Source: Pseudomonadota bacterium
GTDB lineage: Bacteria; Pseudomonadota; Gammaproteobacteria; Steroidobacterales; Steroidobacteraceae
Assembly (NCBI GenBank): GCA_018241505.1
Contig: JAFEDS010000028.1
Span: 38,664 to 102,663 of the forward strand
DNA: 64,000 nt
Reading direction: 5' to 3'
Both the position numbers and the translations under genes were made by a program. Of the stretch, positions 29,166 to 55,056 are shown in pieces; position 1 is the first letter of the stretch; each line of letters begins with the position of its first letter. The notes under the pieces are model-generated. The model saw nothing but the letters and a program-made list of their open reading frames with translations, was not told the origin of the DNA and searched no databases.

Positions 29166-29563
<398 letters not shown>

Positions 29564-29584
29564 GCCACGCGCTGCGCGCGGGGC

Positions 29585-49180: not shown

Positions 49181-50406
49181 GGGCCCAACCTCCTTTACGT
49201 CAGCGCTCGGAGCTGACGTTCAAACAGAATCGCCAACACGGCCGCCACGGGTGGCTGCGTCTCACGCCTGCCTATTCCGTCCGCCTGGTCGAGCAGATCC
49301 TGGCTGACAGTGGGGCGGAAGCCGATGTGGTGTTCGATCCGTTTTCCGGGACCGGCACCACCGCTCTATGCGCCGCCTACCGCGGCAAAACCGGCGTGGC
49401 CACTGACATCAATCCGTTTCTGATCTGGCTTGCGAATGCCAAGGCTCGTTCGTACGACGCGGCGGCCATTGCCTCGTTTGAAAATGCCGCACAACTCGCC
49501 GCGGCAGCAGTGGCGGACGAGTCGGGGCCTCTGGCTGCGCGACCCACGCTCAGCAATATTGAGCGTTGGTGGCGGCCTTCGGCGCTGACATTCTTGTTGC
49601 GGCTGAAGGCAGCAGTCGATGCCCATGAGAGCGGCGATGCGACTCTGCTGAGAGTCGCGTTCTGCCGCACGCTGATGAAGTTGTCCAACGCGGCATTCAA
49701 TCATCAGTCGATGTCTTTTCGTGCGCCCGTGGACGCGGGCGAGGCATCGCATGGCATGGTCGAGCAGTTTCTGGCGGACGTGGCGCATGTAGCGGTGGCC
49801 GCCGCGGACAATCCGTTGGGGGCTACGGAGTACAATCTCTCCAACGCCCGTGACGGCGCCGCAGGGCTGGCGAAGTGGCACAACCGGGTCGACCTGTTGA
49901 TCACCTCACCGCCGTATCCCAACCGCATGTCCTATATCCGCGAGTTGCGGCCGTACATGTACTGGTTGCGATTCCTGTCGACGGGCCGCGAAGCCGGCGA
50001 GCTCGACTGGGATGCGATCGGGGGGACCTGGGGAATCGCGACCAGCCGGTTGGCCGACTGGGTTCCCCAGCCGGGATTCCTCCCCGAGGGCATGCCGGAG
50101 ACCCTGCAAAAGATACGCGCGGCTCACGCGAAAAATGGAATCCTGCTGGCCAACTACATTCACCGTTACTTCGAGGACATGCTGTGTCATCTCGGCGCGA
50201 TGTTGCCGTTGCTGAAGGGCGGCGCGAGCGTGCACTACATTGTGGGCAACTCGATTTTCTACGGCCACATGGTGCCCGTGGAGGATTACCTGGCACGGCA
50301 GATGGCGGCGGTTGGACTGTGTGACATCCAATGTGAACCGATTCGCAAGCGCAACTCGAAGAAAGGGCTGGTAGAGTTCCGGGTTTCGGCACGCAGGGCG
50401 GTATGA
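49177..50406 (+). CDS. DNA methyltransferase (SPPY-type, N4-cytosine/N6-adenine class), probable CTG start
   Basis: About 409 residues if read from the CTG at 49177. The SAM motif I ([10 protein letters not shown]) begins near residue 53 and the catalytic motif IV T-S-P-P-Y near 243-247; SPPY is usual in N4-cytosine methylases. The first standard start codon in frame is GTG 49327, four residues before motif I, but the preceding ~50 codons ([16 protein letters not shown]) look coding and conserved-like. No ATG, GTG or TTG occurs in this frame from 48961 to 49326. CTG 49177 overlaps the lpxC stop as CTGA; ATC codons at 49168 and 49171 are other options. No restriction endonuclease lies nearby. 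Target site unknown. Confidence 0.72.
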
Positions 50407-50407
50407 G

Positions 50408-50776
50408 TCACGCTTTGGGCATGACGCGCACGCTCACTTGTTGAATTGTGGGCTGTGCTTGTTTGATTGCGGGCTCGAGGTCCTGCATAACGTACCGCAG
50501 GCGGGCCGACCAGGCGGCCGATTCTGCGAATATAACCAGTGTGTCATCGCGCTCCACCACGCCGGAGAGCCGCGGTGTCAGCTCGGAGGGTAGATGTTGC
50601 GCGAGCCACTGTTTCCAGAAGGCCTGACGGGCGGCCTGATCCGAGACACGCGTCAAAGTCGGGGTCGAACGGCTCAGCACGGCTTTGACAGAATCCGGCC
50701 GGCGGAACGGTTTTGAGACGCTGGTCGCCGAAATGCGATTACCGCCGCGCTTGTTTCGGTGAAGCTTATTGGGCAT
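50408..50776 (-). CDS. DciA-like DUF721 protein
   Basis: 122 residues from the ATG at 50776: a basic N-terminal stretch (N-K-L-H-R-N-K-R-G-G-N-R), a linker, then a DUF721 domain (W-L-A-Q-H-L-P-S-E-L, D-D-T-L-V-I-F-A-E-S-A-A-W-S-A-R-L-R-Y). DciA loads the replicative helicase in bacteria that lack DnaC/DnaI; DUF721 genes between lpxC and secA are common in gammaproteobacteria. Codons upstream of 50776 would run into the divergent riboswitch region and are not family-like. Converges on the methyltransferase with a 1-bp gap. Confidence 0.85.
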   Translation of the reverse strand: MPNKLHRNKRGGNRISATSVSKPFRRPDSVKAVLSRSTPTLTRVSDQAARQAFWKQWLAQHLPSELTPRLSGVVERDDTLVIFAESAAWSARLRYVMQDLEPAIKQAQPTIQQVSVRVMPKA

Positions 50777-50779
50777 ATT
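50751..50779 (+). promoter_or_regulatory. Weak candidate promoter for the riboswitch transcript
   Basis: TTGTTT at 50751-50756, 17-bp spacer, CATATT at 50774-50779. The predicted start near 50786 would begin just before the riboswitch core. Both hexamers are imperfect. Confidence 0.35.
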
Positions 50780-50792
50780 GAAATTGCTGTTT

Positions 50793-50868
50793 TTGGGCAA
50801 ACCCGCCGAAAGGCGGGGACGCAAAGCCACCGGTCTAAAGCGAGGAGCTATGACAGCGGGGTTGCCAG
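50793..50868 (+). ncRNA. Cyclic di-GMP-I riboswitch (GEMM-I)
   Basis: Matches the GEMM-I core in order: GGGCAAACC at 50795, a GAAA tetraloop hairpin (CCGCCGAAAGGCGGGG), GGGACGCAAAGCC near 50816-50827, the receptor arm with CTAAA, GCTATGACAGC near 50847-50857, and closing GGGTTGCC ending at 50866. GGCAA at 50796-50800 pairs with TTGCC at 50862-50866 to close the aptamer. It lies 150 nt before the M23 peptidase ATG on the same strand. The expression platform is not clear; a GGGCG/CGCCC hairpin follows at 50909-50923 and a GCAAAA/TTTTGC pairing near 50953-50990. Binding senses the second messenger tied to biofilm and motility control. Confidence 0.93.
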
Positions 50869-51016
50869 CAAGGTGCAAGCTGTTTATATCGTTGATTGAA
50901 CGAGAACAGGGCGCTGAACGCCCGGGCTACCGCCGTGCGCTGGTTCATCTGGCAAAAAGCCGGCTCCTGCCCATGCAGACGGGGTTTTGCACGAGTCGAC
51001 ATCCGGAGCGCGCGGA

Positions 51017-51964
51017 ATGAATGTGATTTTCTTTTCAAAGCGAGAAGGGCTGGCGCGCCAGCTCAATCTTGCGCACCCGGTGACCCTCGGCATCGTGGCC
51101 GTGCTGGTGCTGGGGATACTCGGCACAGCGTTCGCGCTGGGCATGCAACTCGGCCAGGGCAGCAGCGGCCGCCTCGCCAGCGGTGAGTCTGCGCACTGGA
51201 TGCAGATTCTCACCGAGCAGAAACACCAGATTGCCGAGCTGAAAGAACGCATGAACGAGCGCGTGGATGCCATGGCCATGCGCATGGGTGAAGTGAATGC
51301 CCACGTGATCCGCCTCGATGCCCTGGGCAAACGGCTCACGGAAATGGCCGACATCGACAGCCATGAATTTGACTTCGACAGCGCCCCGGCGAGCGGCGGC
51401 CCCGAGTCCGATGGCGCGGGTGTCACGGCCCAGATTCCCGACATTTCCATGAAATTGAATGACCTCGAGCAGAAGGTGGCCCTGCGGGACTCGCAGTTGA
51501 ACGCCCTCGAGAATGTCATCATCGACCGCGACCTGAAGAAGCAGATTCATCCGGAAGGCCGGCCGGTCAAGTCAGGTTTCATTTCCTCCTACTTCGGGGA
51601 GCGGGAAGATCCGTTTTCCGGGGAAGAGGCCTATCACAAGGGTGTGGATTTCGCGGGGACGGCCGGGGCCAATGTGGTGGCTGTCGCGGCGGGTGTTGTG
51701 ACTTGGGCGGGTAACCGCACGGGCTACGGCAACCTTGTGGAAATCAACCACGGTGATGGCTATGTGACCCGCTATGCCCACAACCAGCGGACGCTGGTGA
51801 CGGTGGGACAGACGGTCAAGCGGGGTGACCCGATTGCCCTGATGGGCTCGACCGGGCGGTCCACGGGACCGCACGTGCATTTTGAGGTGGTCCGCAATGG
51901 CCGGCAGGTTGACCCGCTGACCTTCGTGGGGCGCCAGCAAGTGGCGGTTGCCGCCAAGCACTGA
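51017..51964 (+). CDS. M23 (LytM) family murein peptidase, membrane-anchored
   Basis: 315 residues: a short cytoplasmic head, one membrane segment (about 20-43), a coiled-coil-like region (about 62-105 and 145-175), and a C-terminal LytM domain with zinc motif H-K-G-V-D (about 224-228) and H-V-H-F (about 301-304). Both metal motifs are intact, so it should be an active endopeptidase rather than an EnvC/NlpD-type activator with lost ligands. ATG 51017 has GGAG nearby and puts the anchor at the right distance. The leader carries a cyclic-di-GMP riboswitch. secA follows after 284 bp. Confidence 0.92.
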   Translation: MNVIFFSKREGLARQLNLAHPVTLGIVAVLVLGILGTAFALGMQLGQGSSGRLASGESAHWMQILTEQKHQIAELKERMNERVDAMAMRMGEVNAHVIRLDALGKRLTEMADIDSHEFDFDSAPASGGPESDGAGVTAQIPDISMKLNDLEQKVALRDSQLNALENVIIDRDLKKQIHPEGRPVKSGFISSYFGEREDPFSGEEAYHKGVDFAGTAGANVVAVAAGVVTWAGNRTGYGNLVEINHGDGYVTRYAHNQRTLVTVGQTVKRGDPIALMGSTGRSTGPHVHFEVVRNGRQVDPLTFVGRQQVAVAAKH

Positions 51965-52020
51965 CCTTATTCCGCCGCCAGAGGGTGCGCCGGCCGCGGG
52001 CGCCGCGACCGCCTGGAGCG

Positions 52021-52066
52021 GGAACGGGGCCCAGGCGCCGCCTGAGCCGCCTGGAGCGGCCGTTCC
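52021..52066 (+). promoter_or_regulatory. Two-part hairpin between the M23 gene and secA
   Basis: GGAACGG (52021-52027) pairs with CCGTTCC (52060-52066), and inside it CCAGGCG (52031-52037) pairs with CGCCTGG (52048-52054). A 13-bp direct repeat CCGCCTGGAGCGG (52009 and 52047) overlaps it. Could end the M23 transcript or belong to the secA leader. Confidence 0.5.
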
Positions 52067-52139
52067 TGCCAGGGGCGGGCTACCCGGCGGGGTCGCCGGT
52101 AGCGCCTTGAAAACCTCCCGATAAGAACCAATTGGGCGT

Positions 52140-52172
52140 AAAGGCCGTCTATTTTGTAAGATAGGCGGCTTT
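52140..52172 (+). promoter_or_regulatory. Hairpin upstream of secA
   Basis: AAAGgCCGTCTAT pairs with ATAGGCGGCTTT (twelve pairs, one bulge, one G-T) around an 8-nt loop, 77 nt before the secA start. No secM-like open frame was found in the interval. Confidence 0.5.
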
Positions 52173-52248
52173 CAAAACGCCCCGTAAACTCGCCGGCCGC
52201 CCCCAAGGGCTTGGCGAACCAAGCATTTTTCCGATCCAGGACGACAAG

Positions 52249-55056
52249 TTGCTGAACCTACTCACCCGCGTTTTCGGCAGCCGGAACGATCGGCTGGTTC
52301 GAGGCTACGGCCGGTACATTCGTGCGGCCGCCGGTCTCGAGTCGACCATCCAGGCTTTGAGCGACGAGGCTCTGCGCGCCAAAACCGACGAATTCCGTAA
52401 ACGCCTCAAGGAGGGTGCCAAGCTAGACGACTTGCTGCCTGAGGCATTTGCCGTAGTGCGTGAGGCCGGCCGGCGCACGCTCAACATGCGCCACTTCGAC
52501 GTGCAATTGATCGGCGGCGCCGTTCTCCACGAGGGGAAGATCGCCGAGATGCGCACCGGCGAAGGTAAGACGCTGATGGCCACGCTGGGTGCGTACTTGA
52601 ACGCTCTCCCAGGCGAAGGTGTTCACATCGTCACGGTCAACGAGTATCTGGCACAGCGTGACGCGGATTGGATGAGTCCGCTCTACAACTTCCTCGGTCT
52701 CACTGTTGGCGTCATCAAGAACGCGCAAACCCCGGTGGAGAAGCGCCAGGCGTACGGCTGCGATATCACGTTCGGCACCAACAACGAATTCGGTTTCGAC
52801 TATCTCCGCGACAACCTGGCTTTCCGACTGGACGACAAGGTACAGCGTGGATTGGCGTACGCGATCGTGGACGAAGTCGACTCGATCCTGATCGACGAAG
52901 CGCGGACCCCGCTGATCATCTCCGGGCCCGCGGAAGAGAGCACTGAGCTCTATCTGCGGATCAATGCGTTGGTCCCGCGCCTCACGCGGCAGATGCAGGA
53001 AGATGGGCCTGGCGACTTCACTGTCGAAGAGAAGCAGAAGCAGGTTCACATCACTGAAGCGGGTCACGAGCACGTCGAACAGTTGATGATTGAGCTGGCC
53101 CTGCTGCGTGAAGGCGAGAGTCTTTACGATCCGGCCAACATCCGGTTGATGCATCACCTGAACGCTGCACTCCGTGCGCATGCGCTCTACAAGCGCGATG
53201 TCGAGTACATCGTCCGCGGTGGTGAGGTCATTATTGTTGACGAGTTCACGGGCCGTACGATGCAGGGGCGTCGTTGGTCTGACGGCCTGCACCAGGCGGT
53301 CGAAGCGAAAGAAGGGGTCCGGGTACGGGAGGAGAACCAGACGGTTGCCTCCATCACGTTCCAGAACTACTTCCGATTGTACAAAAAGCTGGCCGGCATG
53401 ACCGGTACCGCGGATACGGAAGCGCCCGAGTTCCTGCAGATCTATGGCCTCGAGGTCGTCGTCATCCCGACGCATCGCCCCATGATTCGCAAGGACCAAT
53501 CGGACTTCGTGTATCTCACGCAGGACGACAAGTTCAAAGCCATCATTGAAGACATCCGCGATTGTGTCGAGCGCGAGCAGCCGGTGCTGGTCGGCACGAC
53601 GTCGATCGAAACGTCCGAATTTCTCGCCGGCCTGCTGCAGAAGGAAAAGATTCCGCACCAGGTGTTGAACGCCAAGCAGCACGAGCGTGAGGCGCACATT
53701 GTCGCCGAGGCCGGCCGTCCGGGCGCGGTGACGATCGCGACCAACATGGCGGGTCGCGGTACTGACATTGTCCTGGGTGGAAACTACCAGGCCGAGATGA
53801 CTGCACTCGGCGCGGTCGACGACGTGACCCGCGAGCGGCTGAAGGGTGACTGGCAGGCGCGCCACGACAAAGTGCTGGCCGCCGGCGGTCTGCACATCAT
53901 CGGTACCGAGCGCCACGAGTCCCGCCGTATCGACAACCAGCTTCGCGGCCGTTCGGGCCGCCAGGGCGACCCGGGCTCGAGCCGCTTCTATCTGTCGATG
54001 GAAGACAACCTCATGCGCATCTTCGGCGATCCGCAGCGAACCAAGCGGTTGCTGCAGATGGCCGGCATGAAGGCAGGAGAGGTCATTGAGAGCGGCATGC
54101 TCACGCGCCAGATCGAGAAGGCGCAGCGGAAAGTCGAGTCACACAACTTCGACATCCGCAAACAGTTGCTGCTGTTCGACGACGTTGCGAACGATCAGCG
54201 TAAGGTCGTGTATCAACAGCGTACCGAGATCATGGGTACGGACGATCTGTCCGCGGCCATTCACGGCATCATGGACGAGGCCGTCGGCACGCTGCTCGAT
54301 CAGTACATGCCGAAGAACGTGTCGCCCTCTGACTGGGATCTGGCAGGTATGTCCGAGGCTCTCGCCAAGGACTTCAATGCCCGCGTCGACGTGAAGGGGA
54401 TGGTAGAAGCCGATCCGAACCTGGAAGAGGCCACTATTCGTGCGCGGCTGGTGGGTGCGGTTCGTGAGGCGTACGACGCCAAGGTTGCACGTGTCGGTAC
54501 CGCGGAAGGCGGCGAGCCGATCATGCGGCACGTCGAAAAGGACGTGATGCTGCGGATGTTGGACCAACATTGGCGCGAGCATTTGGGAGCCATGGATTAC
54601 CTGCGGCAGGGAATTCACCTTCGCGGCTATGCCCAGAAAGACTATCGGTTCGAATACAAGCGCGAGGCCTTCGAGCTTTTTGCCGCGATGCTCGACCGCG
54701 TGAAGTTTGAGACCGTGACAGTGCTCGCCAAGATTGAGGTCCGCACTCAGGACGAGATTGATCGTGAGGAAGAGGAACGGCGCATCCGGCTGATGCGGGC
54801 ATTGCAGGCTCAGCATGCCGAGGCTCAGTCGGTCCTGTCGGCCGATACCGCTGTTGAGGCGCCTCCTCCCGGTGCGCCATTCAATCCCGCCGCAGCGGCT
54901 GCCGCTGGAGCGATTCCCATGAGCTCGTCGCACGAAGGCGAGAGCGCGGGCACGTTCGTTCGCAGCGAGCGCAAAGTCGGACGCAATGAGCCCTGTCCGT
55001 GCGGGTCAGGCAAGAAGTTCAAAAACTGCCACGGGGCCCTGTCTGGCATCGGTTAG
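52249..55056 (+). CDS. secA: Preprotein translocase ATPase SecA
   Basis: 935 residues with Walker A M-R-T-G-E-G-K-T near 102-109, [14 protein letters not shown] near 206-219, D-E-A-D-like helicase core, and a C-terminal zinc tail [13 protein letters not shown] near 916-928. SecA drives secretory proteins through SecYEG. The start is TTG at 52249, because [15 protein letters not shown] aligns with the E. coli N-terminus and no ATG is available. The leader holds two hairpins and no SecM. Confidence 0.97.

Follow-up and report, generated by a model that had tools for sequence, protein, structure and literature searches.

A c-di-GMP-I aptamer and an adjoining leader open reading frame upstream of an M23 murein peptidase gene beside secA

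We found that the leader of an M23 (LytM) murein peptidase gene next to secA carries a c-di-GMP-I (GEMM-I) aptamer, which is conserved among relatives, is preceded by a sigma70-like promoter pattern and is joined to the peptidase gene by a leader open reading frame (ORF) that starts within the aptamer or immediately after it. The locus lies in the window, by which we mean the whole stretch of 64,000 nucleotides that was analysed. A cmscan search of the window with Rfam 15 matched positions 50786-50869 of the plus strand to RF01051 over the full length of the model (positions 1-87 of 87) with 78.2 bits, against a gathering score of 35, and an E value of 1.1e-13. The initial annotation had recognised a GEMM-I core upstream of the peptidase gene from its motifs and named a covariance search as the check; the motifs are present, and the significant match confirms the core. 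The region given for the aptamer was also right, except that its true 5′ end lies 7 nt earlier than proposed, and its upstream position stands, the distance from aptamer end to the ATG at 51017 being 147 nt instead of 150. The leader ORF, the promoter pattern and the divergent dciA are additions to that annotation. The features of the locus are:

50408..50776, minus strand: dciA (Dna[CI] antecedent), divergent; PF05258 at 23.8 bits, just below the cut-off of 24
50751..50756, plus strand: -35-like hexamer TTGTTT, 17 nt before the -10-like hexamer
50774..50779, plus strand: -10-like hexamer CATATT, its first three bases being the dciA start codon on the other strand
50786..50869, plus strand: c-di-GMP-I (GEMM-I) aptamer; Rfam 78.2 bits, covariation in 63 orthologues
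50842..50847, plus strand: P3-loop GAGGAG, Shine-Dalgarno-like; its GAGG precedes the AUG at 50850 by 4 nt
50850..51020, plus strand: leader ORF of 56 codons and a stop; AUG on the 3′ side of P3 within the aptamer, TGA overlapping the M23 ATG
51005..51008, plus strand: Shine-Dalgarno-like GGAG of the M23 gene itself, read from the sequence
51017..51964, plus strand: M23/LytM murein peptidase, 315 aa; PF01551 at 123 bits, residues 206-300
52209..52224, plus strand: weak terminator-like hairpin before secA, among 3 such sites in 50400-52300 where 2.0 are expected
52249..55056, plus strand: secA; PF07517, PF21090, PF07516 and PF01043

The binding pocket of the window aptamer has G20 (G at 50796), A47 (A at 50823) and C92 (C at 50865), in the GEMM-I numbering of PMC3764141 and PMC11218506; statements on published work, here and below, refer to the portions of the papers that were available. 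G11, A38 and C81 of Bc1 are equated with G20, A47 and C92 in PMC11218506, PMC3764141 lists G20, C22, A23 and A25, and column 11 of the Rfam model is G20 of Vc2. We infer that the element is a class I c-di-GMP riboswitch of the M23 leader, through which c-di-GMP would directly set the level of a wall hydrolase, as had been suggested. The aligned aptamer has both a GAAA loop and a CUAA/UAUG arm, which we take to be the GAAA tetraloop receptor motif.

The peptidase gene was annotated as intact and near secA, in agreement with its PF01551 match and with the position of secA from 52249. Its product has HxxxD and HxH motifs, with both His residues kept, and, by eye, a hydrophobic N-terminal stretch. 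An HxGxD-type motif is present in 118 of 124 M23 orthologues; the HxH motif starts with Asn instead of His in 34 of the 124, and some orthologues may thus be weak enzymes or activators. Scores for the MepM, ShyA, NlpD, EnvC and DipM equivalogs were all below the NCBIfam cut-offs, the best being 117.1 bits for MepM versus 341. The gene order is lpxC, a DNA-methylase-like gene, dciA on the minus strand, M23 and secA, a small correction to the proposed placement in an lpxC-secA region. The methylase-like gene occupies 49327-50406 and has Pfam scores just below the cut-offs; many relatives have dciA in this position too. Of the three terminator-like sites that 50400-52300 contains, where chance alone gives 2.0, two lie between M23 and secA.

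To define a promoter we used TTGNNN, a spacer of 15-19 nt and a hexamer with A at position 2 and T at position 6, whose end lies 10-22 nt upstream of the aptamer core. This sigma70-like pattern was present in 50 of 56 loci, versus 265 of 10813 control positions (2.5%); nine of 65 loci had been dropped from the count, one for a short contig and eight for want of the anchor core motif. The spacer was 17 or 18 nt in all 50, and the -10 hexamer was CATATT in 34 and CATAGT in 8. The first base of the aptamer model corresponds to a start 7 nt after the -10 hexamer, and since the pattern ends just before the aptamer, the M23 message should begin with it. In 27/27 loci whose dciA was readable from its first residue, the start of the gene coincides with CATANT, and in 25 of them 6-11 nt separate the dciA start codon from the aptamer. 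Conservation of the -10 hexamer could partly reflect this start codon; that of the -35 hexamer, at a fixed distance, is not so explained. The promoter pattern is retained in 31 of 32 loci without an intact aptamer (32 examined of 57). If dciA has a 5′ leader, that RNA would run antisense to the aptamer.

A search of 148 genomes for the M23 protein gave a match in 142, and the loci of close matches were searched with a model built from 36 aptamers. Of 124 loci on the M23 tree, 63 carry an intact aptamer, 6 carry remnants (weak model hits at L078, L096 and L098; by eye at L080, L082 and L086), 51 are without, and 4 have a contig that ends too early. All 63 intact aptamers are on the M23 strand, and they are spread over ten families: f1 (34 loci), f2 (5/5), f3 (1/1), f4 (3/4), f6 (1/4), f7 (5/5), f8 (1/1), f10 (5/5), f11 (4/4) and f15 (4/5). 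The aptamer was absent from the loci fetched of f5, f9, f14 and f16 and from the single locus of f12, a family of five genomes. A survey of relatives had been proposed at the outset, and its outcome, 63 carriers among 124 loci of the window's order, indicates that the M23-linked aptamer is old in that order. A quick tree needs 14 or more changes to explain its presence and absence, so it has probably been lost often. Within the window's own genus, 23 loci have the aptamer, 3 have remnants and 21 have none. Ten genomes of this genus have a single c-di-GMP-I match (L037-L045, L047), which precedes a protein of ~470 aa; eight of these have an M23 locus without aptamer, and a close M23 match was not found in the other two (G004, G010). 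At an own-genus locus without aptamer, L050, M23 appears by eye to gain an in-frame N-terminal extension over the place of the leader ORF, and longer M23 open frames were also met in other aptamer-less loci of the genus.

Over the 63 aptamers, pairing is kept in 93.7% of cells, and 92 cells are double-changed, versus 32.1 in shuffles, none of 500 shuffles being as high; because the alignment followed the model, it is biased towards the structure, and kinship can inflate such counts. Sliding the partners by 1-3 columns gave 6-22 double-changed cells, and these controls share the same kinship.

An association extending beyond the window's order was considered and rejected: 23 of 80 named loci carry the aptamer, and none of these is titled as Gilvimarinus, Teredinibacter, Marinobacter, Thioalkalivibrio or Nevskia. 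Three carriers are titled as other groups, L205 as Rhodospirillales, L223 as Chromatiales and L232 as Deltaproteobacteria; the titles are an unsure guide, because the spacer of L205 is identical to one from the window's order.

In the window, the leader ORF and the M23 gene share the sequence AUGA at 51017-51020, where the leader TGA occupies 51018-51020. The receptor arm of GEMM-I holds UAUG for reasons of its own, so that an AUG at this place is not necessarily a start codon, and the case is carried by ORF statistics. In the near group, made up of 23 own-genus loci and 2 of neighbouring genera, the ORF from the aptamer AUG stops between -36 and +26 of the M23 start in 25/25 loci, versus 10.2 with shuffled spacers, where the limits (-36 to +30) were set after the stops were seen and the counts ignore kinship. 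The stop is at +1 in 13 of the 25, and the remaining 12 are spread over -36 to +26. The shuffles keep the dinucleotides of the spacer and the M23 start. For the more distant loci we required a start codon, ATG or GTG, between -2 and +6 of the aptamer end and a stop between -12 and +8; 27 of 36 have such an ORF (shuffles, 1.7) and nine fail this strict test. Overall, a stop at -12 to +8 is found in 43 of 61 loci, 9.5 being expected (L078, L098, L115 and L119 were left out of 65), and in 51 of 63 a frame other than that of M23 stays open from the aptamer end and stops no more than 12 nt from the M23 start. Among 17 further loci from another collection, left after 6 of 23 were dropped for a spacer identical to one already used, 15 have an ORF that starts between -21 and +6 and stops between -12 and +8, versus 2.4 expected; one of the two that fail, L201, is probably the same as L115. 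By the near-group count and a loose test, the leader ORF occurs in nine of the ten aptamer families (f1, f2, f3, f4, f6, f7, f10, f11 and f15); the loose test did not find it in the single f8 locus.

As a control we took 30 aptamers that precede the ~470 aa protein, 28 of which have the same AUG, with the gene start chosen by rule. The ORF stops at -36 to +30 of that start in 11/28, near the shuffle rate of the near group (10.2/25), which does not support a leader ORF as something that these aptamers have in general. In the P3 loop, 21 of the 25 near-group aptamers have the 9-mer GCGAGGAGC, against 0 of 28 controls; the controls have 19 different 9-mers at this place and GAGG in 6. The same place and strand in ten families, the adjacent promoter pattern, the covariation and the joining leader ORF together bear out the assignment of the aptamer to the M23 gene.

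These patterns suggest how the signal could switch the M23 enzyme on or off. In the mechanism that we consider probable, transcription would start from the sigma70-like promoter immediately before the aptamer, which would form the 5′ end of the message. In the window's genus, ribosomes would then start the leader ORF at the AUG on the 3′ side of P3, behind the GAGG of the P3 loop; in other families they would start at the aptamer end, ~7-12 nt after a conserved GGGG. Since the leader ORF ends at or near the M23 start, often in AUGA, finishing ribosomes could reinitiate on M23, and we infer translational coupling of the two. Binding of c-di-GMP would fold and dock P3, hide the AUG, and lower translation of both the leader ORF and M23. 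The column that holds the G of this AUG pairs with C in P3 in 63/63 aptamers, and its A and U presumably sit in the receptor of the GAAA loop; ligand-driven docking should thus hide the start codon. Folding does not settle the direction, because enforcing the aptamer opens GAGGAG more (0.83 versus 0.48) while AUG opens less (0.58 versus 0.71), and we hold OFF at high c-di-GMP to be only somewhat likelier than ON.

Reinitiation at AUGA has been measured before, at the B12 riboswitch of Mycobacterium tuberculosis ppe2, which shares with the window an out-of-frame leader ORF (uPPE2) and an AUGA stop/start overlap, and in which expression was reported to depend on uPPE2 translation, mainly by termination-reinitiation (PMC11260477). 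The stop of the window's leader ORF likewise lies at the start codon of the gene presumed to be regulated. The two differ in ligand and aptamer, ppe2 belongs to Actinobacteria, and in the window's genus the start codon is inside P3 of the aptamer. The available text of the same paper also describes metE, where a translated ORF within the aptamer lowers MetE.

The leader ORF might instead act by shielding the spacer, with ligand-blocked translation exposing it to Rho and causing a stop before M23, the overlap with the M23 start being secondary. The plus strand of the spacer shows no intrinsic terminator, the leader ORF is open across the spacer, and selection on the peptide is not clear (139, 117 and 145 changes at codon positions 1, 2 and 3 in eight small groups), all of which suits termination by Rho. 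The weak codon-position signal also agrees better with a role in coupling than with a function of the peptide itself. Such shielding needs no stop at the M23 start, yet this is where the stop falls in the 43 of 61 loci counted above, and we regard a Rho-dependent switch as unlikely. For ppe2, an involvement of Rho was considered and, according to the available text of PMC11260477, did not explain the effect.

We give still less credit to a switch in which c-di-GMP simply alters access to the Shine-Dalgarno sequence of M23, with the leader ORF a by-product of GC-richness and of an ATGAAY start. The M23 gene does have its own GGAG, a point against coupling, and ATGAAY, found in most M23 genes, always offers TGA at +1. 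However, such ORFs are much rarer in shuffles that preserve both the dinucleotides and the M23 start, the aptamers before the other gene show no excess of them (11/28), and no conserved anti-Shine-Dalgarno was seen by eye in the spacer alignment, which makes such a switch quite improbable. A candidate anti-Shine-Dalgarno, GGCUCC, in the window spacer was rejected because it is not kept, by eye, in L057 and L058. Folding of the leader and of the spacer is unremarkable in stability (z -0.71 and 0.51). A hairpin after the aptamer, AACAGGGCG-N-CGCCC, is conserved in the own-genus alignment and may matter within the genus; as a separate element it was rejected, since by eye it is not in the spacers of other families and its phase to M23 varies.

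The ligand base varies among orthologues. Position 20 of the 63 aptamers is G in 51, including the window, A in 11 and C in 1. The A20 forms (L062, L066, L067, L070, L071, L083, L105-L108 and L112) come from the own genus (6) and from family f10 (5), require at least five changes on the quick tree, and retain the leader ORF in 11/11. Their 11 genomes have 63 aptamer matches, 11 at M23 and 52 elsewhere; position 20 was read in 24 of these 52, always as G, with a motif that missed L258 and L267. That the lineage's aptamer responds to 3′,3′-cGAMP or to both ligands is very improbable for the window, whose own aptamer has G20, even though 11 of 63 M23 aptamers are G20A and one G20C while the 24 others read keep G, G20A GEMM-I RNAs have been modelled and used as binders of 3′,3′-cGAMP (PMC6274999, PMC11352751), and mutation of G20 cost Vc2 30,000-fold in c-di-GMP binding (PMC4744006). 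G20A could also be a first step of aptamer decay.

A fuller picture would combine a leader start codon in the tetraloop-receptor arm, a Shine-Dalgarno sequence in the P3 loop, docking and ribosome competing for the same bases, termination-reinitiation leading to M23, and a G20A change, taken in two lineages by this aptamer and by none of the others read in the same genomes, that could shift the ligand towards 3′,3′-cGAMP; as a whole we put this forward tentatively, as having rather less than an even chance.

The window aptamer resembles Vc1 and Vc2 of Vibrio cholerae and Bc1 of Bacillus thuringiensis in fold, pocket bases and place in a 5′ leader (PMC4744006, PMC11218506). Unlike these, the window has a leader ORF in or just behind the aptamer, and the target is an M23 peptidase beside secA. 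Bc1, in the available descriptions, has two intrinsic terminators, whereas the plus strand of the window spacer has none. For Vc1, the available part of PMC4744006 reports that neither a terminator nor an anti-Shine-Dalgarno is apparent and calls the mechanism unclear; for GEMM-I riboswitches that lack terminators, a start codon in the aptamer with a coupled leader ORF would offer a concrete, easily tested mechanism. If true, it would also connect c-di-GMP directly, at the RNA level, to the cleavage of peptidoglycan, at a locus that neighbours lpxC, dciA and secA, and the natural series of G20, A20, decayed and absent aptamers, with the promoter kept, would put the retuning and loss of a riboswitch on view.

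Other links between c-di-GMP and M23 proteins have been described. In Erwinia amylovora, c-di-GMP raises transcripts of EagA, a MepM-like M23 endopeptidase; eagA is reported to be under transcriptional control in a znuA-eagA operon that also responds to Zur, and, unlike the window gene, it encodes a LysM-M23 protein in another neighbourhood (PMC7705223). In Sinorhizobium, the c-di-GMP phosphodiesterase RgsP is tied to the membrane-anchored M23 protein RgsM by a protein-protein link and not by an RNA leader such as that of the window (PMC6107284, available text). We found no report of a c-di-GMP riboswitch wired to an M23 peptidase beside secA in the literature covered, from which subscription papers are mostly absent.

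The genome that contains the window is 93.9% complete and 5.67% contaminated. The window also holds a bacterial class A RNase P RNA (29167-29566, 297 bits). The genome has 56 GGDEF matches and six more c-di-GMP-I matches above the cut-off. One of the six aptamers, L001, precedes a protein of at least 469 aa without a Pfam or NCBIfam match. In many genomes of the own genus, a c-di-GMP-I aptamer is followed by a protein of ~470 aa (L001:1-1407 on the minus strand, L037-L045, L047-L049); the two members scanned had no Pfam or NCBIfam match. Four of the six aptamers precede short proteins (L002, L005, L006, L007), with Ig-like and fibronectin-type domains at L002 and L005 and a fibronectin-type match below the cut-off at L006, and another, L004, precedes pilM.
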